Below, in pieces: positions 1,041-64,000 of a DNA stretch of 64,000 bases (positions are counted from its first letter, which is position 1; each line of letters opens with the position of its first letter). The position numbers and the translations under genes were made by a program. The stretch covers positions 2,979,770 to 3,043,769 of the forward strand of contig NZ_CM001775.1 of assembly GCF_000332235.1 (NCBI RefSeq), written 5' to 3'. The notes under the pieces were generated by a model. It was not told the origin of the DNA. It saw only the letters and a program-made list of their open reading frames with translations, and searched no databases. This DNA is from Geminocystis herdmanii PCC 6308. Lineage in GTDB: Bacteria; Cyanobacteriota; Cyanobacteriia; Cyanobacteriales; Cyanobacteriaceae.

Positions 1041-1284
1041 CAGTGCCGTAGATCAAGTTTTCATAACCTCTGTTCTATGAAAAATAAGGAGTAGTTTACT
1101 TCTTCTAAGAAGTTTGCTTTCTGCTCCTGCTAACTACTTGCCCTGATGCTGTCTATCTAAAGATAGAGAAACTAGGCGCACTCCCAGCAATAAGGGTGCA
1201 GGTGTACTGCTATAGCGGTTAGCAAATCACTTTCGATCGAGGAAGAATTCTCTTTGAGAATTGAAAGCGAGTCTCGCCATCTGC
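1041..1284 (+). ncRNA. Natural tracrRNA-crRNA fusion guide (homing guide)
   Basis: A second, diverged tracrRNA copy starts at 1041 and runs straight into a short repeat-like tail and a spacer. Its own hairpins are ACTTCT 1098-1103/AGAAGT 1108-1113, TCTATCT 1152-1158/AGATAGA 1161-1167, and CTTTC 1230-1234/GGAAG 1241-1245. The anti-repeat AATTCTC (1246-1252) and repeat tail GAGAATT (1256-1262) are joined by only TTT, then GAAAG and the 17-nt spacer CGAGTCTCGCCATCTGC (1268-1284). That is the layout of an engineered V-K sgRNA. The spacer matches the adjacent tRNA-Leu 3' end with one mismatch. Processing and transcript start are not visible. Confidence 0.85.
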
Positions 1285-1287
1285 TTT

Positions 1288-1372
1288 GACGACACTAATT
1301 TGTGATCACGTCATTTGATTTGTTAAGACGACACTAATCTGTTACCGATGACAAATAATTTGTTACTGTACA
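1288..1372. repeat. TnsB-type binding repeats and terminus of the CAST
   Basis: Related units lie at 1288-1307, 1327-1345 and 1347-1366, with shared cores GACGACACTAAT and GTTAC or its relatives. A weaker unit lies around 1310-1326. The outer edge is TGTACA at 1367-1372. Read from the tip, the order TGTACAGTAACAAATTATTT then TGTCATCGGTAACAGATTAG closely resembles the published ShCAST end. These are likely the transposase-binding sites. Confidence 0.85.
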
Positions 1373-1411
1373 TCGGGGAAAGAAAATTTGTGACAACACA
1401 TCTATCTAAAA

Positions 1412-1493
1412 TGCGGATGGCGAGACTCGAACTCGCAAGGTCAAGACCACACGCCCCTCAAGCGTGCGCGTATACCAATTCCGCCACATCCGC
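1412..1493 (-). tRNA. tRNA-Leu(GAG)
   Basis: Read on the minus strand, the acceptor stem GCGGATG (1487-1493) pairs with CATCCGC (1413-1419), with A as discriminator. The anticodon arm is CACGC-TTGAGGG-GCGTG, anticodon GAG, reading CUC/CUU. It has a long variable arm and a T arm containing GTTCGAGTC, so it is a class II tRNA. CCA is not encoded. It is the attachment target of the neighbouring CAST, which lies downstream of its 3' end and leaves the gene whole. Confidence 0.95.
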
Positions 1494-1512
1494 AGAAACT
1501 CAACGAATAATT

Positions 1513-1541
1513 ATTATAACTGATTTTGCGTTATATAGCAA
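1513..1541 (-). promoter_or_regulatory. Sigma70-type promoter of tRNA-Leu
   Basis: On the minus strand TTGCTA (1536-1541), a 17-bp spacer and TATAAT (1513-1518) end about 20 bp before the mature tRNA 5' end. Spacing and the perfect -10 box support a housekeeping promoter; the -35 box matches at four of six positions. Confidence 0.6.
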
Positions 1542-1664
1542 GAAGATGGTGAGAAAAAATGTCTTATCCTGAAACAAAAGTCCGCAAATCTTAACTTATC
1601 ATTGGTTTTATAATACTCTTATTGATACAATAACTCTTTAGTCCAATATCGGAAAAAAAAATTT

Positions 1665-2873
1665 ATGAGTCGTGCCAATAAAGTAGTTTTAGCTTATTCT
1701 GGGGGAGTAGATACCTCCGTTTGTATTCCTTACTTACAAAATGAATGGGGAGTTAAAGAAATTATCACCCTAGCGGCAGATTTAGGGCAGGGTGAAGAAT
1801 TAGCGCCTATTCAAGCAAAAGCCCTTAAATGTGGTGCTGTGGAGTCTTTGGTAGAAAATGCCATTGAGGAGTTTGTAGTTGATTATGCTTTTCCTGCCAT
1901 CAAAGCCAATGCGTTGTACGAAAATCGTTATCCCTTATCCACTGCCTTAGCTCGTCCTTTAATTGCTAAACTGTTAGTACGCGCAGCAGAAAAATATGGT
2001 GCTGATGCCGTTGCCCATGGTTGTACTGCTAAAGGTAATGATCAAGTTCGTTTTGATTTGGGTATCACTGCATTAAACCCTAATTTAAAAATTCTCGCCC
2101 CTGCTAGAGAATGGAATATGAGTCGGGAAGAAACCATCGCCTATGGTGAAAAATGTGGCATTGAATCCCCTGTGAAAAAGTCTTCTCCCTATAGTATCGA
2201 TCGAAATCTTTTAGGTCGTAGTATAGAGGCAGGTCCTTTGGAAGATGCCATGACTGAGCCACCCGAAGAAATTTACGCTTTAACCAAATCCATTGCGGAT
2301 GCACCTAATGAGCCTCAATATGTAGAAATCACCTTTGAAAAAGGTACTCCTGTGGCGGTAGATGGAAACTTTTTATCTCCCGTTGACTTGATTACTACTT
2401 TAAATGAAATTGCAGGTAATCATGGCGTAGGGCGCTTAGACATGATCGAAAATCGAGTAGTAGGTATTAAATCCAGAGAAATTTATGAAGCACCAGCACT
2501 ACTTGTATTAATTAAAGCTCACGAAGATTTAGAAAGCCTCACTCTTACCAGTGATGTCACCCACTATAAACGCTCTCAAGTTGATTTACCTTACACTCGT
2601 TTAGTCTATGAAGGTTTATGGTATAGCCCCCTCAAAACTGCTTTAGATGCTTTTATTGAGAAAACCCAAGAAAGAGTTAGCGGTGTAGTGCGCATTAAAT
2701 TCTTAAAAGGTAATGCTACGATCGTGGGAAGAAGATCAGAAAATTCTCTTTATACTTCCGCATTGTCAACCTATGGTAGTGATGACAAATTCGATCATAA
2801 AGCCGCCGAAGGATTTATCTATATCTGGGGATTATCTTCCAGAGTTTGGGCGGAGAAAACAAAAAAAAATTAA
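1665..2873 (+). CDS. argG: Argininosuccinate synthase
   Basis: 402 aa, full length for the family. It joins citrulline and aspartate using ATP to give argininosuccinate, the penultimate step of arginine synthesis. The N-terminal ATP pyrophosphatase P-loop AYSGGVDTS is at about residues 9-17, and [14 protein letters not shown] near 118-131 is the conserved substrate-binding segment. It is a single gene read away from tRNA-Leu and the CAST, followed by a hairpin. argB lies 42 kb away in the same window, so the pathway is scattered. Confidence 0.98.
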
Positions 2874-2950
2874 TGGAGAATTGAAAATGGAGAATTGAGA
2901 ATTAAAAAGTTAATCTACTTCTCCAGAAAATATTTTTTATTTGTTCGTAG

Positions 2951-2979
2951 TAAGGGCTTCAGCCCTTATTATTTTTGAG
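2951..2979. terminator. Hairpin between convergent argG and birA
   Basis: TAAGGGCT-TC-AGCCCTTA (2951-2968) followed by TTATTATTTTT. It is preceded by TTCGTAG, as is the larger hairpin at 52617. It probably ends argG; the birA stop abuts it. Confidence 0.6.
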
Positions 2980-3790
2980 TTATTAAGTAAAAATTTTCAG
3001 GAAATTTATGATAAGAAATACTGTAATTTTCTGGTGATAAATTCATTTTACTACTGGCATTAGATGATAGTAATTTTATTTGTAAATTCCCTTGATTGTT
3101 AATCCCTAAAATTTCTCCTCTGATATTTTCTAATAAGGCTTTTTCTCCTAAGTTATACAGAAATTGATTATAGTTATTAACGAGATTATTTATACCTAAT
3201 TGTAAATAATTATCATAGCTTTTAAGGATTTCGATCGAAATTATCTCTGCTAAATTAATTAATGAATTGATGGGATAATAATGATAATCTTGAAAATATT
3301 TATCTAAACTAATGCCATTTTCGGGATAGGAATTTTGATAATTAATTCCCACGCCAATGACGATATTTTTAATCCGATTTTTTTCTATTTTAGTTTCGCA
3401 CAAAATACCGCCTAACTTTTTTTCTTCTAAAATTAAATCATTTAACCATTTGATTTTGACGGGAATATATAATTTATTTAACCCCTTGACAACGCCCAAA
3501 ATACTCCATAAAATTAGATGATTAGCACATTCGATCGAACTGTTTAAATTTAGTGCCATACTCAAGTATAATCCCCCTAAGCTCGATCGCCAAGTATTAC
3601 CTCTTTGTCCTTTTCCTGCGGTTTGTTGTTTACTAATAACGATAAAAGGAGGTTGAATATTTTTAGAAAGTAAAAGCCATGCTTGAGTATTAGTAGAAGC
3701 TAGAGTGTCATAAACATAAACAGAAATAGTATTTTTCATTCCCATAAAAGAAGAAAAATTATCAGGTAAATTAAAAATTATTTGCTCCAT
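2969..3790 (-). CDS. birA: Biotin-[acetyl-CoA-carboxylase] ligase, monofunctional
   Basis: About 273 aa from the ATG at 3788-3790, which gives MEQIIFNLP; the longer reading starts inside the divergent neighbour's leader. It makes biotinyl-AMP and transfers biotin to the carboxyl carrier protein of acetyl-CoA carboxylase. Visible motifs are STNTQAW (substrate loop), AGKGQRGNTWRS (biotin/ATP loop) and KIKWLNDL (catalytic lysine region). There is no N-terminal helix-turn-helix, so it should not be a repressor like E. coli BirA. The next gene is divergent, about 30 bp away. Confidence 0.92.
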   Translation of the reverse strand: MEQIIFNLPDNFSSFMGMKNTISVYVYDTLASTNTQAWLLLSKNIQPPFIVISKQQTAGKGQRGNTWRSSLGGLYLSMALNLNSSIECANHLILWSILGVVKGLNKLYIPVKIKWLNDLILEEKKLGGILCETKIEKNRIKNIVIGVGINYQNSYPENGISLDKYFQDYHYYPINSLINLAEIISIEILKSYDNYLQLGINNLVNNYNQFLYNLGEKALLENIRGEILGINNQGNLQIKLLSSNASSKMNLSPENYSISYHKFPENFYLITQK

Positions 3791-3820
3791 ATTAATAATC
3801 AATATATAAGATTTTATGCC

Positions 3821-4258
3821 ATGATGAAAGAAGAACAAGAAAATTTAATAGACGTTGACAAAGTAAACAATACCCCCGATAAAATTAAGTTAATTTATTT
3901 AGGAATTTTAGCATTAGATATTAAATTAGAATCGAAAGTTATTCCTAAGACTAAATCAGAATTAGATATATTAATAGAATACTTAGTAGAATTATTGCAA
4001 AAAAATGACGAAGTAATTAGACGAGCTTGTTCTTTATTAGAACAAATTGATAATTCTGACAATGCCGATTATTATTATGGCACAGTAAAAGATTACTTAG
4101 ATAAATTTTTTGATTTAGCTAAATCTGATCCTCTTTTAACCATAGAAATTGATCCTAAAAATCAGACTATTATTCCCTTAAAAGTATTGACAAATTTGCT
4201 TTTTTATGGTAGTAAATCAGGTAAAAATTTCTTAAAACAACAATTACAATGTCTGTAA
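3821..4258 (+). CDS. Conserved hypothetical protein, acidic helical
   Basis: About 145 aa from the first ATG of an ATGATG pair at 3821; the longer reading overlaps birA's start and lacks support. I do not recognise a named family. It is predicted soluble and mostly helical, rich in Leu, Asp and Glu. Two helical stretches resemble a small regulatory or scaffold protein (ELDILIEYLVELLQKNDEVI and DYLDKFFDLAKS). It is divergent from birA with a shared promoter gap of about 30 bp. Confidence 0.7.
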   Translation: MMKEEQENLIDVDKVNNTPDKIKLIYLGILALDIKLESKVIPKTKSELDILIEYLVELLQKNDEVIRRACSLLEQIDNSDNADYYYGTVKDYLDKFFDLAKSDPLLTIEIDPKNQTIIPLKVLTNLLFYGSKSGKNFLKQQLQCL

Positions 4259-4312
4259 ATAACGAAAAAATGTTAAATTAATATAGGAATCTTAAAAATA
4301 ACTATTCACTAT

Positions 4313-5185
4313 ATGGAATGTATCGTCAATCGTCGGGCGAAATTTAGTGCCAGTCATCGCTATTGGTTGCCAGAATTATCCGATGAGGAAAATCAAGCCC
4401 GTTTTGGGGCAAATGCTCGTTTTCCCGGTCATGGACATAATTATATATTATATGTATCTATCATCGGGGAATTAGACAAATTTGGTATGGTGCAAAACTT
4501 GTCTGAGGTAAAAAAAGTCATCAAACAAGAAATCACCAGCCAATTAGATTATAGTTATCTTAATGATACATGGGTAGAATTTCAAGAAACTTTACCAACT
4601 ACTGAAAATATTGCGAAGGTAATATGGGAACGTCTGTCACCTTATTTGCCATTAGTCGATATACAATTATACGAACATTCTCAACTTTGGGTTAATTATC
4701 AAGGAAATAATATGGAAGCTACTTTAACAGTTCAAACACATTTTAGCGCAGCGCATCGTTTAGCTTTACCTGAGTTAAGTTTTGAAGAAAATAGCGAAAT
4801 TTATGGTAAATGTGCGCGCCCCAATGGTCACGGACACAACTATCATTTAGAAGTATCAGTAACCGGTGAAATGGATGCTCGTACTGGTATGATTATCGAT
4901 TTAGTAGCTTTACAAAAAGTCATTGATGATTATGTGGTTGAACCTTTTGATCATACTTTCTTAAACAAAGATATTCCTTATTTTGCGGAAGTTGTGCCAA
5001 CAGCAGAAAATATTGCGGTTTATATTGCTCAATTATTACAAGAACCTATTAAGAAGTTGGGAGCAGAACTTGATAAAGTTAAGTTGATTGAAAGTCCTAA
5101 TAATTCTTGTGAAATTTTTTGTCGCAAATCAAGTTTAACTAAAGAAAATAAAAGTAATGCTACTTTACAACCTGTTTTAGCTTAA
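4313..5185 (+). CDS. Tandem 6-pyruvoyl-tetrahydropterin synthase/QueD-like protein
   Basis: 290 aa with two PTPS/QueD domains at about 1-135 and 138-275. The family turns dihydroneopterin triphosphate into 6-carboxytetrahydropterin (queuosine) or related pterins. Both halves keep the zinc histidines (SASHR...HGHNY; SAAHR...HGHNY). The second half has the catalytic cysteine in YGKCARPNGHGHNY; the first reads FGANARFPGHGHNY, so Asn replaces Cys and that half is probably inactive or structural. tgt, the last-stage queuosine enzyme, is elsewhere in the window. Exact product (queuosine or pterin cofactor) is not decided by sequence. Confidence 0.9.
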   Translation: MECIVNRRAKFSASHRYWLPELSDEENQARFGANARFPGHGHNYILYVSIIGELDKFGMVQNLSEVKKVIKQEITSQLDYSYLNDTWVEFQETLPTTENIAKVIWERLSPYLPLVDIQLYEHSQLWVNYQGNNMEATLTVQTHFSAAHRLALPELSFEENSEIYGKCARPNGHGHNYHLEVSVTGEMDARTGMIIDLVALQKVIDDYVVEPFDHTFLNKDIPYFAEVVPTAENIAVYIAQLLQEPIKKLGAELDKVKLIESPNNSCEIFCRKSSLTKENKSNATLQPVLA

Positions 5186-5507
5186 TCAGCAAGAAACCTA
5201 ATATCAACTTTTTAGTAAAGGTTTTAAGTCTTATTTATAAATAACTATAGTTGTTACTACAAACTTTTTTTATTTATAAAATAGACATCTCCAGAAATTA
5301 AATTTTTGGAGATTCCTAATACATTACTTAAGTGTTTCCTAATAATCAATATTTCTGTATTATGTTCTGTAGCCACTTTGACAAAGGCAGGGATGTTTCA
5401 TTTTCAAATTTTTGGTTAAAAGGGAGTAATGAGTAACGAGTAACGAGTAAGGAGTAAGGAGTTCTGCTATAATTAACTATTATTTGTAAATATTATAGTA
5501 TTACCTG
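5186..5507. other. Intergenic stretch with a short tandem repeat
   Basis: No gene seen. Positions 5433-5462 hold degenerate heptamers of the GAGTAAC/GAGTAAG type. AT-rich sequence follows up to the next start. Confidence 0.6.
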
Positions 5508-5693
5508 ATGAAAACTACAATTAATGAAATTGATATTGTTGCTTTAACTCAAAATTTACCAGAATTAGGGTTAATTAAAGGAGACACAAGCATGGTGGTA
5601 GATATTGCTGAATCAGGGATATTTTTAGTTGATTTTTTTAATAAAAGTGGTGAAATAATTGTCTTAGAATCTTTAAAGAAAGAGCAAATATAA
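5508..5693 (+). CDS. DUF4926-like small protein
   Basis: 61 aa. The pattern DIVALTQNLPELGLIKGD, then a hydrophobic strand and VDFFNKSG, fits DUF4926, small beta-rich proteins often paired with toxin-like or DUF6883 partners. No partner gene is adjacent here, so it may be an orphan. Function is unknown; an antitoxin or immunity role is only suggested by the family's usual company. Confidence 0.65.
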   Translation: MKTTINEIDIVALTQNLPELGLIKGDTSMVVDIAESGIFLVDFFNKSGEIIVLESLKKEQI

Positions 5694-54942: not shown

Positions 54943-55197
54943 ATGAATAAGAAAAAGTTATTAGCTAAAATACTAGAAGGAAGTAAAAATGTTAAATTTA
55001 GTGAATTTGAAATATTATTAAAAGGCTTCGGTTTTGAGTTAGCAAGAATTAATGGTAGTCATCATATTTATAATCGAGATGATATACCTGAAATTATTAA
55101 TATTCAAAATAAAAAAGGAGAGGTTTCTCCCTATCAAGTCAAACAATTTTTAGCATTGATTGAAAAATATAATTTAACTTTAGATAAAGGGGAATAA
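54943..55197 (+). CDS. hicA: HicA-type toxin
   Basis: 84 aa. Double-stranded RNA-binding-like fold with the conserved His in RINGSHHIYNR; HicA cuts mRNA. hicB is 3 bp downstream, toxin-first order. Length is usual. Confidence 0.88.
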   Translation: MNKKKLLAKILEGSKNVKFSEFEILLKGFGFELARINGSHHIYNRDDIPEIINIQNKKGEVSPYQVKQFLALIEKYNLTLDKGE

Positions 55198-55200
55198 AAT

Positions 55201-55422
55201 ATGCAAGACTATCATATTAATATATTCTATAGTGAAGAAGATCAAGGCTATATTGCTGATATTCCTGATTTAAAATTCTGTTCTGCTTACGGAGACACTC
55301 CAGAAGAAGCATTACAAGAAGTTTTAATTGCTAAAAAAGCATGGTTAGAAGTTGCTAAAGAAAAAAATAAACCCATTCCTTTACCTAAATATACACCAAT
55401 TATTTATCAAATTGCTGGATAG
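55201..55422 (+). CDS. hicB: HicB-type antitoxin
   Basis: 73 aa. YSEEDQGYIADIPDL and SAYGDTPEEALQEV are the HicB partial RNase H fold. Lacks an extra DNA-binding domain at the C terminus. Pairs with HicA. Confidence 0.9.
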   Translation: MQDYHINIFYSEEDQGYIADIPDLKFCSAYGDTPEEALQEVLIAKKAWLEVAKEKNKPIPLPKYTPIIYQIAG

Positions 55423-55468: not shown

Positions 55469-57541
55469 TTAATATAAAAGAGAAATAGCCTCTCCTATTT
55501 GCTTAACTTTATTTACTAATTCGGGGGGATTAATTACCTTAACTTGCCCCCCAAAACCGACAATCCACCGTAATAAATCAATGTCTTCTAATGACCATAA
55601 AGGTAATTTTACTTGAAAACGATTAGGAAAGTTTTTATCTTCTGTATTTTTGAGGGTAAAAGGTGGTGTTTTATCATTATTTTTATGAAGACGAGGGGAC
55701 ATTTTCATTTGTTTCAAAGGGAATCGATTTGTACCTTCACTAATAAACTTAAAAGTATAGTCATTAAACCATAATTCTATGATTATTTCAGCGTCTTTTT
55801 TATGTTTTCGATCGAGCAGTGCCACTTCGTGAGCGAGATATTGTCTTTGCAATTTAGCATTATTTCCCAGAAAAATTCCGCCACTAGCTTGATATAGTTG
55901 TTGTAATTTATTTAAGGCTTTTTCTTGTTCTTTTATACTTCTGGATTGATTAATATTTTTACCTAAAAATAATCTATCTAAACGCTCAAATTTGAATAAA
56001 TTTTTATCTTTTCCTTCAATACATTCATAGCCTAAATACCATCCAATATTATGAAAAACTATTTGTAATGGATAGGCTAAAAAGTAATTATTATTATCTA
56101 TTTCATTATTTTCTGAGTCATTTTGATAAAATTCTGCACTACCAAAAAAGCGATTTAATTCTAACAATTTTCCCGATGCGATCGAACTTTCTAAGACATC
56201 AATTTTGCGGACTAAAGAAGTATTAGGAAGACTATTTAAATCTACAATATTTTTATTATAAATTGCCCTGATGGGATAACTTTCAGGATGAGCAATTCTA
56301 GCATCTCCTAGACGACTTTTAAAGGTTTCATACACCAATAAAGCCACAGGATCAGATAAACTATTAGCTTGGGCTTCTAATAAGCGAAAAACTTGAATTA
56401 AATCCGTGTGAGATAAAATTCCAGTGCCGATAAAATAACCTTTTTTCATGGTAAAATCTGGTAAAATATTAAAGGGTTTTAAGATTTTTTCTATATCTTT
56501 GCGAATGCTATCACTGCAATTAATATTGATCACTTCTTCATTTTGCATGGCTTTGATTAAACTGTGCAAACATCCTTCTTTTTTCTCCCATCTTAGGGGA
56601 TTATGGATAATAAAATGAATGGTTTTTATGAGTCGGCTAAATGGTTCAATATCAGAGTAAGGATGAGTTACTAAATCTTCAATATTTACTATTTCAATCT
56701 CTGGTAATGGTAAATAATTTTGTTGATTAATAATACCCATTTTTTCTAACCAAAGTAAATCTTTTTTGAGGGCTTCTGGTGAGGCATAAATAGGACTAAT
56801 TTTTCGGGTAATAATGGCAGAAATTTCTTCTATCTCACTATCAAATTTAATATCTTCTCCAAAAATTTCTCTAATTAATTCGGGGTTAGATTGTGATAAA
56901 TTACCGAGATTAGGATATTTAATTATTAAGCTGATGAGGTGGAAAAGTCGATCGAAATCTAGTAACCTTGAATAAGGATGAAATTTTACTTTACTATGAG
57001 CAGTGCGATTAGTGCGATTAACTTGTACTCGATGCAATTTTGACAGTTGATTATTAAATTGATTAACTTCTAATTTACCATCTCGAAAAGGTATCTCATA
57101 AACCGCCAAAAAACCCTCCGCAGGAAGAGGCGGAAAATTTCTTAACGATTGATATAAATTAGTTATAACATCATCTGGCACTGTTCGATCGCGCTTTTGA
57201 TTCCATTCTAAACAAAGATTTAAAGGAGTTTTTAAATACCAACCAATCCAGTTAATATCGTTATATTTAGCTAACTTTTCCAAAAGACTAATTCGCCACC
57301 ATCTTTTAGCGTTAGTGGCATCATAAATAATCGGTTTTCCTGCTTGAATATAACTGTCAATTTGTTTAAATATTTCTGTTTCAATTAACTGCCAATCTCC
57401 TTGTATTTTTTCATCACCAAAAAGTTGTTTTCTAATGTTATCTGTGGAGACAATTTGATAATTAGAATCTTGTTGAATAATATGATTAGCTAGAGTTGAT
57501 TTTCCGCTACTTGGGCAACCGATTAAAATGTGTGAAATCAT
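55469..57541 (-). CDS. P-loop kinase fused to WYL-type domain
   Basis: 690 aa. Residues about 1-150 are a T4 Pnk/zeta-like kinase: ILIGCPSSGKSTLAN, STDNIRKQLFG and IYDATNAKRWWR. A middle winged-helix-like part precedes a C-terminal WYL/WCX region (YPLQIVFHNIGWYLGYE ... FERLDRLFL). WYL proteins often sense ligands and regulate defence genes. It is 29 bp after the HEPN-like gene in the retron operon. An in-gene TCGATCGAGCAGTGCCACTT repeat codes AHEVALLDRK. Confidence 0.8.
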   Translation of the reverse strand: MISHILIGCPSSGKSTLANHIIQQDSNYQIVSTDNIRKQLFGDEKIQGDWQLIETEIFKQIDSYIQAGKPIIYDATNAKRWWRISLLEKLAKYNDINWIGWYLKTPLNLCLEWNQKRDRTVPDDVITNLYQSLRNFPPLPAEGFLAVYEIPFRDGKLEVNQFNNQLSKLHRVQVNRTNRTAHSKVKFHPYSRLLDFDRLFHLISLIIKYPNLGNLSQSNPELIREIFGEDIKFDSEIEEISAIITRKISPIYASPEALKKDLLWLEKMGIINQQNYLPLPEIEIVNIEDLVTHPYSDIEPFSRLIKTIHFIIHNPLRWEKKEGCLHSLIKAMQNEEVININCSDSIRKDIEKILKPFNILPDFTMKKGYFIGTGILSHTDLIQVFRLLEAQANSLSDPVALLVYETFKSRLGDARIAHPESYPIRAIYNKNIVDLNSLPNTSLVRKIDVLESSIASGKLLELNRFFGSAEFYQNDSENNEIDNNNYFLAYPLQIVFHNIGWYLGYECIEGKDKNLFKFERLDRLFLGKNINQSRSIKEQEKALNKLQQLYQASGGIFLGNNAKLQRQYLAHEVALLDRKHKKDAEIIIELWFNDYTFKFISEGTNRFPLKQMKMSPRLHKNNDKTPPFTLKNTEDKNFPNRFQVKLPLWSLEDIDLLRWIVGFGGQVKVINPPELVNKVKQIGEAISLLY

Positions 57542-57570: not shown

Positions 57571-58350
57571 TTATTTTCTAGCCTGTTTAGGAATCCATTG
57601 ATTACAACGACAAATAAACCAATGAATAGCTTTTTTAATTAATTGATAATCTTGTTTTAAGTACAATTCTGAAGCCTTATTTTTGAACAAATAATATTTT
57701 ATTTCTTTAATCCTATCTACAATTATCATTCCTTTTTCTCTATGACTAGCAATATTTCTTAATTCATAAAGACTAGATAATAATAAATATTTTTTTCTTT
57801 CTTCATTTTTTATATTTTGATAAATTTTACTTGAATTATTAGATATAATAACTAAACATAGTTCCAGTTTTTGTAGTCCCCATATTTTCTGAATATCTCC
57901 TTGATTTATTTTATTAATAAAATTTTCTTTCGCATAATCACTCTTTATATTTTGTTGAACTATATTACTCGCATTTTCAAATAAATTATTATTATATTGA
58001 TAATTAGTACCTATTAAAAAATTAATAATTGGTTCGATTTGTAACCACGCAAATTTGCAAAAATCCATAAAATCATTTTTATATCTGGCAATTATCATTC
58101 TTAAATTATCTGCTTCTAATTGTGTTTTAAATAGTTGATGATCATTGAAATATAAATCATAGTTTATATGATAATCCTCAAAATTTAAAGATGATTCTTC
58201 TGAATAGAATATTCTTAATAAATTCTCTATTTCTTTAATAGTTTTTGCTTTTACAAATTCAAGGCTATTATATTTACAATTATTAGAAATTTTTAACTGT
58301 TTTTTTAGCTCTTTTAATGCTTCTAATATGAGTTCTACATTTTCATCCAT
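57571..58350 (-). CDS. HEPN-like protein in the retron operon
   Basis: 259 aa, helical. LYELRNIASHREKGMI carries RX4H (R-NIAS-H), the HEPN RNase motif; the surrounding helices fit, but it is an inference from one motif. It is 41 bp after the RT stop. A retron effector is the obvious candidate role; I cannot match it to a retron type by name. Confidence 0.62.
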   Translation of the reverse strand: MDENVELILEALKELKKQLKISNNCKYNSLEFVKAKTIKEIENLLRIFYSEESSLNFEDYHINYDLYFNDHQLFKTQLEADNLRMIIARYKNDFMDFCKFAWLQIEPIINFLIGTNYQYNNNLFENASNIVQQNIKSDYAKENFINKINQGDIQKIWGLQKLELCLVIISNNSSKIYQNIKNEERKKYLLLSSLYELRNIASHREKGMIIVDRIKEIKYYLFKNKASELYLKQDYQLIKKAIHWFICRCNQWIPKQARK

Positions 58351-58391: not shown

Positions 58392-59501
58392 TTAAAAATA
58401 AATTTTTAATAGTTGATAATATTGACTAATATATTTTTGATAAATACTGTCATCCTTACCCTTAACCATACCGATAAACTCTATTTTACCCTTTAATACG
58501 TCTTGAAAACGAGGGATTTCTTTCCCTGAAAATCTGGCACTATGATGATATTTTTCTTCAAACTCCTTTTGTGCCGATTCTAAACCAAATTTAGCCCAAG
58601 CATGAAGCATCGCCCTTATTTGACGCACATAGCGTCTATCCACATTGGGAAATTGATTAGTGGTTAATCCCGTTACCTCTTGATGATTACCCTTAGTTTG
58701 TAAACGGGTTTTCTTCTCATTCACACTAAACCCATTTTCTCTAATGATATTCAACAATGATTCTCCTAACATCACTTTTTCGTTATTGCCATAGTCAACG
58801 ATATACGCTAAATGAGGAGGAAAATCCTTGAGAGTAGTAGAGAAAGTTATATCATCAGCATAACGAGTATAAGTTGCCTTACAATCCTTTGCTAAACGCT
58901 GTAATTGACTATCCATCTTGGCACAAATCATATTAGTAACCATGGGAGAAGTCGGCGCACCTTGGGGTAATTGATTATTATGACAACAAATTTGCGCTAA
59001 CACTGTAGCCACATCGGGAGGTAAATGATAGGGAATCGCCATAAACATACCCCTAACACGTCCAAAATTGACGGAAGGGAAAAAGTTTTCTAAGTCTAAA
59101 TTTAAAACATAGCGTTTTTTGACATGGGCTTTTGCATTAGTAACAATGTTTTTATCTTGCACAAAACCATGCACGGAAGGCTTAACTTGATAAACTGCCT
59201 GTAAAACCTGATTAAGTTTTTGTTGAATAATTTTTAATGCTGTAATGGGGGTTGATATTTGTCTTTCACCCCCTGATTTTTTCGGAATAGTAAAGGTTTT
59301 ATAACGTTTTTGGGAGTCAACTAAATAAAGATGATAAACTAACCTTTTATGAGGAATATTTAAGAGTTTAGCAACATCTAAAGGGGTTTTTAATTCATAA
59401 AATTTTTTGCTTAATTCTTCGGGAGAATCTTGGAGTAATAACGGATTTTGGTTGTGCAGATGAGGAAAAATAAGTTGCCATTGAGGAAGATTTATCGTCA
59501 T
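58392..59501 (-). CDS. Retron reverse transcriptase
   Basis: 369 aa. The retron hallmarks are present: SVHGFVQDKNIVTNAKAHV (with NAxxH), LDLENFFPSVNF (domain A Asp), QGAPTSPMVTN, the catalytic TYTRYADDITFS, and the VTG segment in EVTGLTTNQFP. It copies part of its own ncRNA to make RNA-linked DNA. The ncRNA candidate lies upstream at 59551-59714. Not a group II intron RT: no maturase or HNH. Confidence 0.93.
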   Translation of the reverse strand: MTINLPQWQLIFPHLHNQNPLLLQDSPEELSKKFYELKTPLDVAKLLNIPHKRLVYHLYLVDSQKRYKTFTIPKKSGGERQISTPITALKIIQQKLNQVLQAVYQVKPSVHGFVQDKNIVTNAKAHVKKRYVLNLDLENFFPSVNFGRVRGMFMAIPYHLPPDVATVLAQICCHNNQLPQGAPTSPMVTNMICAKMDSQLQRLAKDCKATYTRYADDITFSTTLKDFPPHLAYIVDYGNNEKVMLGESLLNIIRENGFSVNEKKTRLQTKGNHQEVTGLTTNQFPNVDRRYVRQIRAMLHAWAKFGLESAQKEFEEKYHHSARFSGKEIPRFQDVLKGKIEFIGMVKGKDDSIYQKYISQYYQLLKIYF

Positions 59502-59550: not shown

Positions 59551-59714
59551 AAATCACTTGCAGGTTGTATTCTACCTTATCCATATATACGTTTATATAT
59601 GTAAAATATCGTTGAAACAAAAAACGTTTCAATAACATTCTCGTAAAGCTAACTTTGAAATACACCATCGCAGTATCTACAATGGAAATCAATATCTTAC
59701 CCTACAAGTGATTT
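59551..59714 (-). ncRNA. Retron msr-msd RNA
   Basis: On the minus strand, a1 AAATCACTTGTAGG (59701-59714) pairs with a2 CCTGCAAGTGATTT (59551-59564), 14 nt with one wobble, 50 bp before the RT start. Between them lie hairpins: CCATTG/CGATGG (msr-like), TTGAAAC/GTTTCAA, and CATATATA/TATATATG. The priming G would be in GGGTAAGAT after a1; which G is unclear. Confidence 0.82.
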
Positions 59715-61216: not shown

Positions 61217-61451
61217 ATGGAAACAATTACCATTGAAGTTGATCCTGAAATTGCCAAGGCTTACCGAGAAATCAAACCTGAAAAACGGCAGAAAATTGGT
61301 ATGTTTCTCAATGTAATGCTAAAAAAAGGCTATTAATCAAAAACCACTGCTAGACATTATGGAAGAAGCAAGTCAACAAGCGATCTCCAATGGAATGACT
61401 CCAGAAATTTTAGAATCAATTCTCAATGAAAATTTTATCAGAACTAATTGA
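61217..61451 (+). pseudogene. Antitoxin gene, 1-bp frameshift
   Basis: METITIEVDPEIAKAYREIK reads to a TAA at 61334-61336; after the A7 run at 61321-61327 the true frame continues in +1 (AINQKPLLDIMEEASQQAIS) to 61451. One extra A explains it. The end overlaps the toxin remnant. Confidence 0.82.
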
Positions 61452-61728
61452 TGTATTGAGTCGTCAAAAATTCGATCGTTATCTTTCCAGAGATATTCGT
61501 GAGGATTTTCTAGCTGGTTTATCTGTAGAAGCAGAAATTATAGAAATTAATGAAAAAATAGAGATTTGTCGAGATTCCAACGATAATAAATTTTTAGAGT
61601 TAGCAGTTAATGGAAATGCAACGCATATTATAACGGGGGATAAAGACTTGTTAGAATTGCATCCGTTTCAAGGTATTCCTGTTTTAACACCAAGACAATT
61701 TTTACAATTTATTGCAGAAATCAACTAA
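61426..61728 (+). pseudogene. PIN toxin missing its N terminus
   Basis: 100 aa open frame. ELIDVLSRQKFDRYLSRD and DSNDNKFLELAVNGNATHII then GDKDLL are the middle and C-terminal PIN parts; the first about 45 residues with the first Asp are deleted. Fused tail to head with the antitoxin. Confidence 0.82.
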
Positions 61729-62170: not shown

Positions 62171-62646
62171 TAAAATTTAACTATTGAATCACTATATCGA
62201 ACAGCATCTAGTATTTCTTGCATAGTGAAATAAAGGTAATAAAAAACAGGAGTTTTATTAATATCAATAGTTCCAAAAGGACGCAAATTAGTATCACTAT
62301 TGATAGGAGTACATTTTTTGTCAAAAGTGACTCCCCATTTTACTATTTTTTTTAATCTTTTCTCGTTATCTCGCTCCCATAAGCCTAAAAATAACTGTTC
62401 ATAAAAATAAGTAATATCTATTGTTTGAAATTCCAAGTCTGTAATGGATTTAGATGTAGTTATAAAACTTTGACTAACTATAATGTTAATATCTAATTTC
62501 TTAAAAAATTTATCAGCTTCATTGCTTATATAGTTATTCACAGTCTCTCGATTTTTTTCAGAGTCAAATGAAATCAAAGGCATATATTGGCTATAAAAAT
62601 CTGAAGATTCTACAATATAACCACAAAAATTGATACTATTTTTCAT
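62167..62646 (-). CDS. Hypothetical protein downstream of the LlaJI/McrC-like gene
   Basis: 159 aa. No family recognised. Its start overlaps the upstream gene by 4 bp, so it is in the same operon and may belong to the restriction-like system. Confidence 0.65.
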   Translation of the reverse strand: MKNSINFCGYIVESSDFYSQYMPLISFDSEKNRETVNNYISNEADKFFKKLDINIIVSQSFITTSKSITDLEFQTIDITYFYEQLFLGLWERDNEKRLKKIVKWGVTFDKKCTPINSDTNLRPFGTIDINKTPVFYYLYFTMQEILDAVRYSDSIVKFY

Positions 62647-64000
62647 AAATTTTCTTCAATGTAAGATTTTTGAATTATACTAAAGTTAGTATGATATATT
62701 TTTATTCCTTCTGTTATTTTAATTTCCCCCACCTCAAATAATAAATTATTATTTGTTATATAATATGGAATAAGAAAAGCGTTATCTTCGACAATCATTT
62801 TAGGAATTGATTGTAAAGCTAATTCGTAAGTCATTTGTTTGATTAAATCAATTCTATACTTTTTGGCTGTATTACATAAGTTTTTATGACAATTATTTTC
62901 ATAAAATTCTATATCTACATATTTATAATCATAAATTTTGATCCGATCTAAATTTTTCAAAACTAAATCAGGTCGCAGAAAACGTCTTAATAATTTTCCT
63001 TGTTTTATAGTGTTTAAATTATTTGTATTGTCTAAAATTTTTAAACTCAAATCATATTCTATACATAATAAATCCTGCCATGTATCTTTGTTATTTGAAG
63101 ATTTAACTGTATAAATCCAAATAAGATTATTTTCATCTTTGTTAGAAAGACAATAGTTTCCTACTCGATTCACATCTAAATCTTTTCTGACTTCATTCCG
63201 ATAGTTTTTTAGACATATATCAGCATCAGCATAAACAATATCTTGAAAACTCTTTTTAAAAAAATATGTATTACACATATCTTCCCACACAAAAGAAAAT
63301 CCTTTTACTCCCCAATATTCTCCATCTTCACTTTGAGGATCTATATCACCATATAAAAATAGTTCTATTGCTTCATATATTTCCCAATAATCATTATCTT
63401 TATAATAAGTATTTTCATCAATAATTTCTAATATTGTTTTGAGAATTTTAATGGTTTCCGCAGATGTTTCTTCACTAAAAATAGATTGATTATCTGTTAG
63501 ATAATTATTTTTAAATTGTTCACCTAAAAAATGAATATCTTTAAGATTATTTTTTATATTTTCTGATACATCTTCTTGTAATTCTTTTATAATTTCACTA
63601 AGAATATAACAAAAAAAGGTAACAATATCAGTACTTTGGTAATGTAAAGTAGGACTGGGTAAATCCATTTTATCAATAAAAATTACATCATCATCTAAAT
63701 AAATTGCCCTATGCAAATATTTGTCAATACAGCTATAGTTAACTTTGTCTGTTCGTCTTTCTTTTTGTAATATTGACTGAATAGCAAGTGGGTCATAAGC
63801 ATTTAAGACTTGTTCAATCATTCTTATTTTACTGTAAATAATACAAGATTCTTCTTGCTCATTAATAAGAGTAACTCCATTTTTTCCTAAAATGGTTTCA
63901 TCTTGATTCTTTTGATATTCTGATTGATTTAATTTAAACTTTTCGTTATTAATATTGTCTTTTTCAAATTTACGAAAAGTTCGATAAAGAGAAAAAAATA
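62643..64000 (-). CDS. LlaJI/McrC-like PD-(D/E)XK protein (5' end outside window)
   Basis: The frame is open past the ATG at 63821 to the window edge with no stop in 59 more codons, so the start may be outside. FSFVWEDMCNTYF, then RRFLRPDLVLKNL and KIYDYKYVD match the nuclease core pattern (PD...D-x-K). I recall LlaJI-family proteins in cyanobacteria with this LAIQSILQKERR start. A GTPase or methylase partner would be to the right. Confidence 0.6.
   Translation of the reverse strand, partial: FFSLYRTFRKFEKDNINNEKFKLNQSEYQKNQDETILGKNGVTLINEQEESCIIYSKIRMIEQVLNAYDPLAIQSILQKERRTDKVNYSCIDKYLHRAIYLDDDVIFIDKMDLPSPTLHYQSTDIVTFFCYILSEIIKELQEDVSENIKNNLKDIHFLGEQFKNNYLTDNQSIFSEETSAETIKILKTILEIIDENTYYKDNDYWEIYEAIELFLYGDIDPQSEDGEYWGVKGFSFVWEDMCNTYFFKKSFQDIVYADADICLKNYRNEVRKDLDVNRVGNYCLSNKDENNLIWIYTVKSSNNKDTWQDLLCIEYDLSLKILDNTNNLNTIKQGKLLRRFLRPDLVLKNLDRIKIYDYKYVDIEFYENNCHKNLCNTAKKYRIDLIKQMTYELALQSIPKMIVEDNAFLIPYYITNNNLLFEVGEIKITEGIKIYHTNFSIIQKSYIEENL

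Follow-up and report, generated by a model that had tools for sequence, protein, structure and literature searches.

The DNA analysed here, referred to as the window, is a stretch of 64,000 nt from the 4.26-Mb genome of Geminocystis herdmanii PCC 6308. Its minus strand carries, in this order, a noncoding RNA (ncRNA; 59714-59551), a reverse transcriptase (RT) gene, an effector gene and a gene for an AAA_33/WYL protein (Table 1). The effector gene, which did not figure in the original prediction, is the more informative part of the locus. A sigma-70-like site is found just before the ncRNA (59755-59726); the region has 35 such sites against 27.5 expected, which is near chance level. A HicA/HicB pair, an ORF with a PIN domain and an ORF matching the LlaJI restriction endonuclease are also present near the retron (window 54943-55422, 61426-61728 and 62643-63821), and these surroundings resemble a defence island.

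Table 1. Features of the retron locus (positions in the window).
Feature	Position	Strand	Basis or remark
a1, 5' inverted repeat of the ncRNA	59701..59714	-	conserved and covarying in relatives
a2, 3' inverted repeat of the ncRNA	59551..59564	-	pairs with a1
TATT, 5' arm of short helix extending a1/a2 to the predicted priming G	59691..59694	-	3' arm AATA at 59568-59571
predicted priming (branch) guanosine, TATTG^ATTT, 4 nt before the msr hairpin	59690..59690	-	inference
msr stem-loop CCATTGT-AGATACT-GCGATGG, conserved	59665..59685	-	covariation
msd hairpin, sequence not conserved in relatives	59605..59639	-	fold and alignment
msd hairpin CATATATA/TATATATG, sequence not conserved in relatives	59582..59601	-	fold and alignment
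retron reverse transcriptase, 369 aa, unfused	58392..59501	-	RVT_1 1.6e-23; PADLOC models; motifs
HEPN-family effector, 259 aa, R198-N-I-A-S-H203	57571..58350	-	profiles, motif, structure model
AAA_33 P-loop/WYL protein, 690 aa, frequent neighbour, probably not core	55469..57541	-	domain matches

The two repeats a1 (AAATCACTTGTAGG) and a2 (CCTGCAAGTGATTT) form 14 pairs with one G·U, as originally described. Allowing one G·U at the most and a span of 80-250 nt, this is the longest stem in a 350-nt region, and none of 300 dinucleotide-shuffled versions has one as long (mean 9.2, maximum 13). The predicted minus-strand fold confirms that the repeats enclose three hairpins: the fold energy of 59724-59505 is -58.2 kcal/mol (z -5.35), and none of 200 shuffles is as stable. 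Only the first of these hairpins is conserved in relatives, the other two lying in the fast-changing msd. The RNA closed by a1/a2 is approximately 164 nt long, and the RT starts 49 nt beyond a2 on the same strand, in agreement with the proposed position of the repeat upstream of the RT. Rfam at its gathering thresholds reported a single tRNA in the window and no retron RNA, and we therefore built our own covariance model.

A search with the RT gave 27 relatives in genome contigs; matches at E 1e-60 or better occur in 19 of 386 genomes of the phylum and 40 of 388 of the order. Our alignment A1 comprises 23 ncRNAs, namely that of the window and those of the 27 loci other than L010 and L024-L027. 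Its 24 consensus pairs fall into three helices: a1/a2, the msr hairpin and one long-range helix. Of the cells in these pairs 94.4% are paired, and 13 pairs have changes on both sides; none of 500 shuffles reaches any of five measures, and sliding the partner by 1-3 columns leaves at most 57.4% paired. In the msr hairpin, both sides have changed in 6 of 7 pairs, and 98.1% of cells are paired. Conservation of a1/a2 in homologous loci, on which the original prediction had made its case depend, takes the form of identity in near relatives and compensatory changes in far ones: in the distant rows L019, L021, L022 and L023, the letters of a1 are partly or wholly different and those of a2 match them. 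In L025, a 14-nt stem is formed by letters specific to that locus, and the model match there is only weak. No conservation is seen in the msd between the repeats, not even in L001 with its 91% RT identity.

The covariance model R1 was built from 21 RNAs, 19 of them beside stand-alone RTs. The stand-alone set comprises RT frames of 300-420 aa and, after removal of 11 duplicates, counts 39 including the window, or 40 with L129; RTs that are fused (12) or truncated or broken (five: L024, L026, L089, L123 and L125) were left out. Every one of the 40 distinct stand-alone RTs has an R1 match upstream of it on its own strand; 21 of the 40 are not in the model, although fewer than 21 are truly independent since L010 equals L009 in sequence and L011 and L013 are near rows that were used. 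The weakest of these matches is at L096 (E 2.2e-6), and in the 38 tabulated loci the RNA lies 15-234 nt before the nearest in-frame RT start. Elsewhere, R1 has weak matches only at L025 and L098 and none at L113 and L121 (fused RTs) or L024 and L026 (truncated RTs). Across the 386 phylum genomes, the RT occurs in 19, the RNA in 18 and both in 16. The RT without the RNA is found in G048 (truncated RT) and in G055 and G126 (fused, distant), and the RNA without the RT in G093, where a relic directly precedes a gene that is AAA_33-like by eye, and in G265 (57-nt match). We are nearly certain that the inverted repeat is genuine and marks a bacterial retron RNA in a cyanobacterium.

Two loci have tandem ncRNAs before one RT: L015 (5286-5481 and 5731-5880, plus strand) and L092 (5994-6161 and 5699-5835, minus strand). 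Each copy has its own a1/a2 of 9-13 pairs. The copies agree over their first 62 nt (61/62 in L015; 50 of 56 aligned positions in L092), and their msd regions are unlike in length and sequence.

For Retron-Eco2, the accessible text of PMC12405507 gives the order rG15, 4 nt and then one short stem-loop. In the window, ATTT separates TATTG from the msr hairpin, and the G is conserved in most rows of A1. The TATT can pair with the AATA just before a2, which would place the G at the end of the closing stem. Given the Eco2-like spacing and the conserved G, we predict G59690 as the priming base; it reads TTGA rather than the classical AGC, which is present after the msr hairpin (59650-59648). Cells of the 5-pair TATT/AATA helix are 92.0% paired, a value that 18 of 500 shuffles reach, giving modest support. 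The second ncRNA copy of L092 has TATAG with TATA opposite, by eye a further double change. An alternative helix that follows the msr hairpin (columns 64-69 with 163-168) scores as well and shares its 3' arm with the pre-hairpin helix; we prefer the latter for priming, although the two are not cleanly separated.

The RT of the window matches the PADLOC models RT-Protease_XI (470 bits), RT-TIR_XII (452 bits) and RT-Toprim_I-C (437 bits) best, against 183 bits for RT_IX. Going by these sequence scores, it sides with types XI, XII and I-C and not with type IX. It carries NAKAH at 122, YADD at 214 and VTG at 276, and among the stand-alone RTs, NAxxH and YxDD are present in 39/39 and [VI]TG in 38/39 (L093 lacks the last), following the retron motif definitions in the available text of PMC6868368. 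Together with the RNA found before all stand-alone relatives examined, these motifs support the earlier view that the gene belongs to a retron and is not a stray RT. Its identity to three RTs annotated as Ec67 is 42-44%. The locus is like Retron-Eco2/Ec67 (RT-Toprim, PADLOC I-C) in its broader RT group and in the order a1, G, 4 nt, single msr stem-loop, msd and a2, as far as PMC12405507 describes it there. Unlike that retron, in which the accessible text has Toprim fused to the RT, the HEPN gene here is separate. Likewise, some relatives carry protease or TIR fusions of the kind modelled by RT-Protease_XI and RT-TIR_XII, whereas the 369-aa RT of the window ends after the RT domain: no second domain was matched, and no fused Toprim, protease or TIR was found in it.

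Relatives of the RT/ncRNA are fused to trypsin (L098), TIR (L025), AlbA_2 (L021) and AAA_5 (L097) domains, and L110-L112 and L131 give full-length PADLOC RT-Toprim matches without a Pfam Toprim match. In L021 (5321-6904), an RT relative is fused to a Schlafen AlbA_2 domain (2.3e-12), with the ncRNA upstream. L097 has the ncRNA, an RT-AAA_5 fusion (3336-5609, minus strand) and then a 695-aa PDDEXK_7 protein (1243-3330, minus strand); L119 and L132 have lengths similar to this pair, domains having been scanned in L097 only. The combination of AAA_5 and PDDEXK_7 is reminiscent of McrB/McrC and is possibly another type of retron effector. Some relatives are carried on plasmids, pGM3709_03 of Geminocystis sp. 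NIES-3709 and pAQ5 of Picosynechococcus sp. PCC 7002. On chromosomes, the core is not confined to one site but has neighbours that we named by eye as ClpC-like or Dps-like. Viral contigs gave 5 pattern stretches, none of them a relative of the RT, and 24 phage records match, all below 60% identity.

The effectors behind the RT form one superfamily with several classes. By eye we labelled five: a short form (window, L086), a second short form (L087, L092), a single protein of approximately 290 aa, a form split into a HEPN ORF and a second ORF, and a protein of approximately 305 aa with a long N-terminal helix. R-x4-H, which fits the R-x4-6-H pattern of HEPN ribonucleases, is present in 30/30 effectors (29 loci plus L129; L001, cut by a contig end, was left out), compared to a shuffled mean of 5.4 and a maximum of 12. 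By hhalign, the effector profiles A3 and A4 prove to be homologous (98.5%, E 1.5e-15), and their R and H align. We searched Pfam, NCBIfam and PADLOC with 32 proteins encoded by effector genes and second ORFs; matches were weak and scattered, such as one member matching NCBIfam HepT_toxin (E 0.07) and one matching PADLOC CARF-HEPN (0.074). Only RRM_1 recurred in several members above the curated cut-off; it is found in three of the five second ORFs tested (L003, L013 and L015, best 3.6e-8; not L002 and L009). The window effector itself has no match at the Pfam cut-off and none at all in NCBIfam or PADLOC; profile A3 against PDB sequences gave AlkD2 at E 0.97 only.

Two AlphaFold models of effectors have pLDDT values of 84.5 and 84.9. 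The best structural match of the window effector model is MntA-HepT (Z 7.8), and that of L018 matches HepT (8.3), the TM0613 HEPN protein (8.2), AbiA (8.0) and the sacsin HEPN domain (7.9); in a helical protein, Z values of 7-8 can reflect a common arrangement and are not decisive for a HEPN fold. Foldseek alone found nothing significant in the PDB for the window effector (best E 0.51). Roquin and Csm6 are also among the best structural matches of the two models, and we take the Roquin structure to be HEPN-containing. AbiA and Csm6 contain HEPN domains according to the literature. Judging from the models and the motif, the gene behind the RT looks like an RNA-cutting HEPN toxin. HepT, which with other HEPN proteins (PDB 6m6u, 7bxo and 1o3u) provides the best structural matches, is paired with a nucleotidyltransferase antitoxin; by contrast, the effector here is paired with an RT and an ncRNA.

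A retron with a HEPN RNase is already represented by type IX. In the preprint on Retron-Kva2 (PMC13405049), as far as its accessible text goes, a HEPN dimer is complexed with the RT, a winged-helix protein and msDNA, and triggering leads to HEPN-dependent tRNA degradation and growth arrest. The shared combination of retron RT, ncRNA and HEPN effector would fit assignment of our locus to this type. However, the RT belongs to another group, as its PADLOC scores above indicate, and no winged helix was matched among the seven neighbourhood proteins scanned, where a divergent one could be missed. The order here is ncRNA-RT-HEPN, whereas the accessible text lists Kva2 as HEPN, WH, RT and ncRNA, and the canonical R-x4-H of our effectors is reported there as absent from type IX. 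A type IX retron is thus extremely improbable, and the evidence points to a retron/HEPN pairing separate from it. We found no description of this RT/ncRNA-HEPN pairing in a literature search with little subscription coverage.

The effector gene lies directly behind the RT in 28 of the 39 stand-alone loci (L129 being outside this count). It is present in 27 of the 29 loci whose RT is at least 60% identical to that of the window and in one of the 10 below 60%, L094. The 11 loci without it are L020, the sequence of which ends 92 nt after the RT, L016, and nine with RTs below 60% and no effector in the fetched stretch (L022, L027, L095, L096, L109 and L115-L118). L016 (duplicate L090) has an intact ncRNA and RT and no adjoining HEPN gene. 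The lack of an adjoining HEPN gene in all sub-60% RTs other than L094 would suit a reading in which the RT/ncRNA core is genuine and the downstream gene is a passenger, the real effector being elsewhere or the retron having another role. Against this, RT and effector nearly abut, with some overlaps (gaps of -16 to 70 nt). The effector profiles match, in the fetched loci, solely the gene directly behind the RT, with two exceptions: in L123 they match what remains of an RT-effector fusion, and in L013 they match the second ORF weakly.

We then compared genomes with and without the RT. A first test covered 25 of the 44 RT-positive genomes (leaving out fused and truncated RTs and five distant stand-alone ones, G058, G616, G642, G651 and G664) and 24 RT-negative genomes. 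An effector match was present in 21/25 and 1/24, respectively; the RT-positive genomes without one are G022 (RT with a stop), G127, G568 and G294. Among 310 genomes of the order, considering the best few candidates per genome, A3 matches in 11 and A4 in 7, together 17, and in 15 of these the match lies at an RT, whole or fragmentary, of the same contig. Among the 15, G452 continues on a second contig, and G048 and G064 have partial RTs. In G324 the match is 152 nt from a contig end and the RT also ends a contig. Sixteen of the 17 are RT-positive, again for the best few candidates, and the remaining one, G119, has a stop-ridden effector relic beside an RT fragment. Because the profiles were built largely from the same loci, the positives are expected, and the absence elsewhere is the finding. 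That the family occurs only at retrons, at a relic or at contig ends in this sample also argues against a passenger, and provides strong evidence that the HEPN effector is linked to the retron RNA and RT.

Closely related loci carry different effectors. Between L009 and L010, RT identity is 97.3% and the ncRNAs do not differ over 137 nt, while the effectors are of different classes (29.9% identity). The same is seen for L009 and L006 (RT 95.5%, effector 24.7%), L003 and L017 (89.9% and 31.2%), the window and L001 (90.8% and 28.8%; the L001 effector is cut by the contig end) and the window and L099 (89.2% and 30.7%). In the seven swap pairs aligned, DNA similarity ends 13-66 nt before the RT stop; between the window and L099/L100 it returns where the AAA_33 gene begins. 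Conversely, effectors are kept at 89% in L003/L013 and at 92% in L007/L011. On the RT tree, the classes require 13 changes over 28 tips compared to a shuffled mean of 14.9, with 12.5% of shuffles as low, so effector class hardly follows the RT. Related strains thus appear to swap the effector and keep the rest of the retron constant. Such a difference in class between near-identical cores is what a passenger gene could also produce; yet the replacements all come from a single superfamily that has R-x4-H, and we regard the passenger reading as unlikely. Since L009 and L010 share the same ncRNA and differ in effector, the msd alone cannot set effector choice. It is possible, if slightly doubtful, that the RT/ncRNA core acts as an effector-indifferent sensor chassis on which HEPN classes are swapped gene for gene, and that in the two genomes with tandem ncRNAs one RT would serve two ncRNAs and two msDNA sensors.

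The AAA_33-WYL gene follows the effector in nine loci (the window, L002, L015, L086, L092, L094, L099, L100 and L129), which include plasmid pAQ5. The L094 copy is a part matching residues 282-690 only, and that of L129 is 49% identical. The protein combines an AAA_33 P-loop with a C-terminal WYL/WCX region and also occurs away from retrons. We considered it as a core part and rejected this for now: whole or partial relatives are present in 12 of the 24 RT-negative genomes searched, and in G119 the gene is free of stops beside a dead retron, from which we conclude that it is probably not core.

Decay is common in relatives, as seen from the RT stop in L089, the truncated RTs of L026, L123 and L125 and the relics of G119 (L126, an RT fragment and an effector remnant with stops) and G093 (L122, a bare ncRNA core); both relics lie directly before an AAA_33-like gene. 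The retron of the window could likewise be decayed or inactive. Its parts, however, are intact, with a1/a2, the msr core, a full RT with YADD and a full effector with R-x4-H, and we consider decay in this genome quite improbable.

We think it very probable that the locus is a three-part retron of ncRNA, RT and HEPN effector, in which RT and msDNA would restrain a HEPN RNase until a phage trigger leads to abortive infection. The ~164-nt RNA would be reverse transcribed by the RT from the priming G beside the closing stem, predicted as G59690, to give msDNA. RT and msDNA would then hold the HEPN protein inactive in a complex, and a phage product disturbing that complex would release or re-orient a HEPN dimer. 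The dimer would cut host RNA, most likely tRNA, via R-x4-H, and growth would stop. Restraint and RNA cleavage are inferred here by analogy with type IX and from general knowledge of retrons; the literature searched yielded no experiment on the retron/HEPN family described here.

According to the available text of PMC6868368, putative cyanobacterial retron RTs (Nostoc punctiforme, Trichodesmium) grouped with myxococcal RTs, and that text describes no ncRNA or effector for them. Cyanobacterial retron RTs now gain a defined ncRNA and a likely effector. The swaps on a constant core allow one to ask what part of the retron an effector must recognise, and with the pAQ5 relative in Picosynechococcus sp. 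PCC 7002, msDNA and toxicity are testable in a tractable host.
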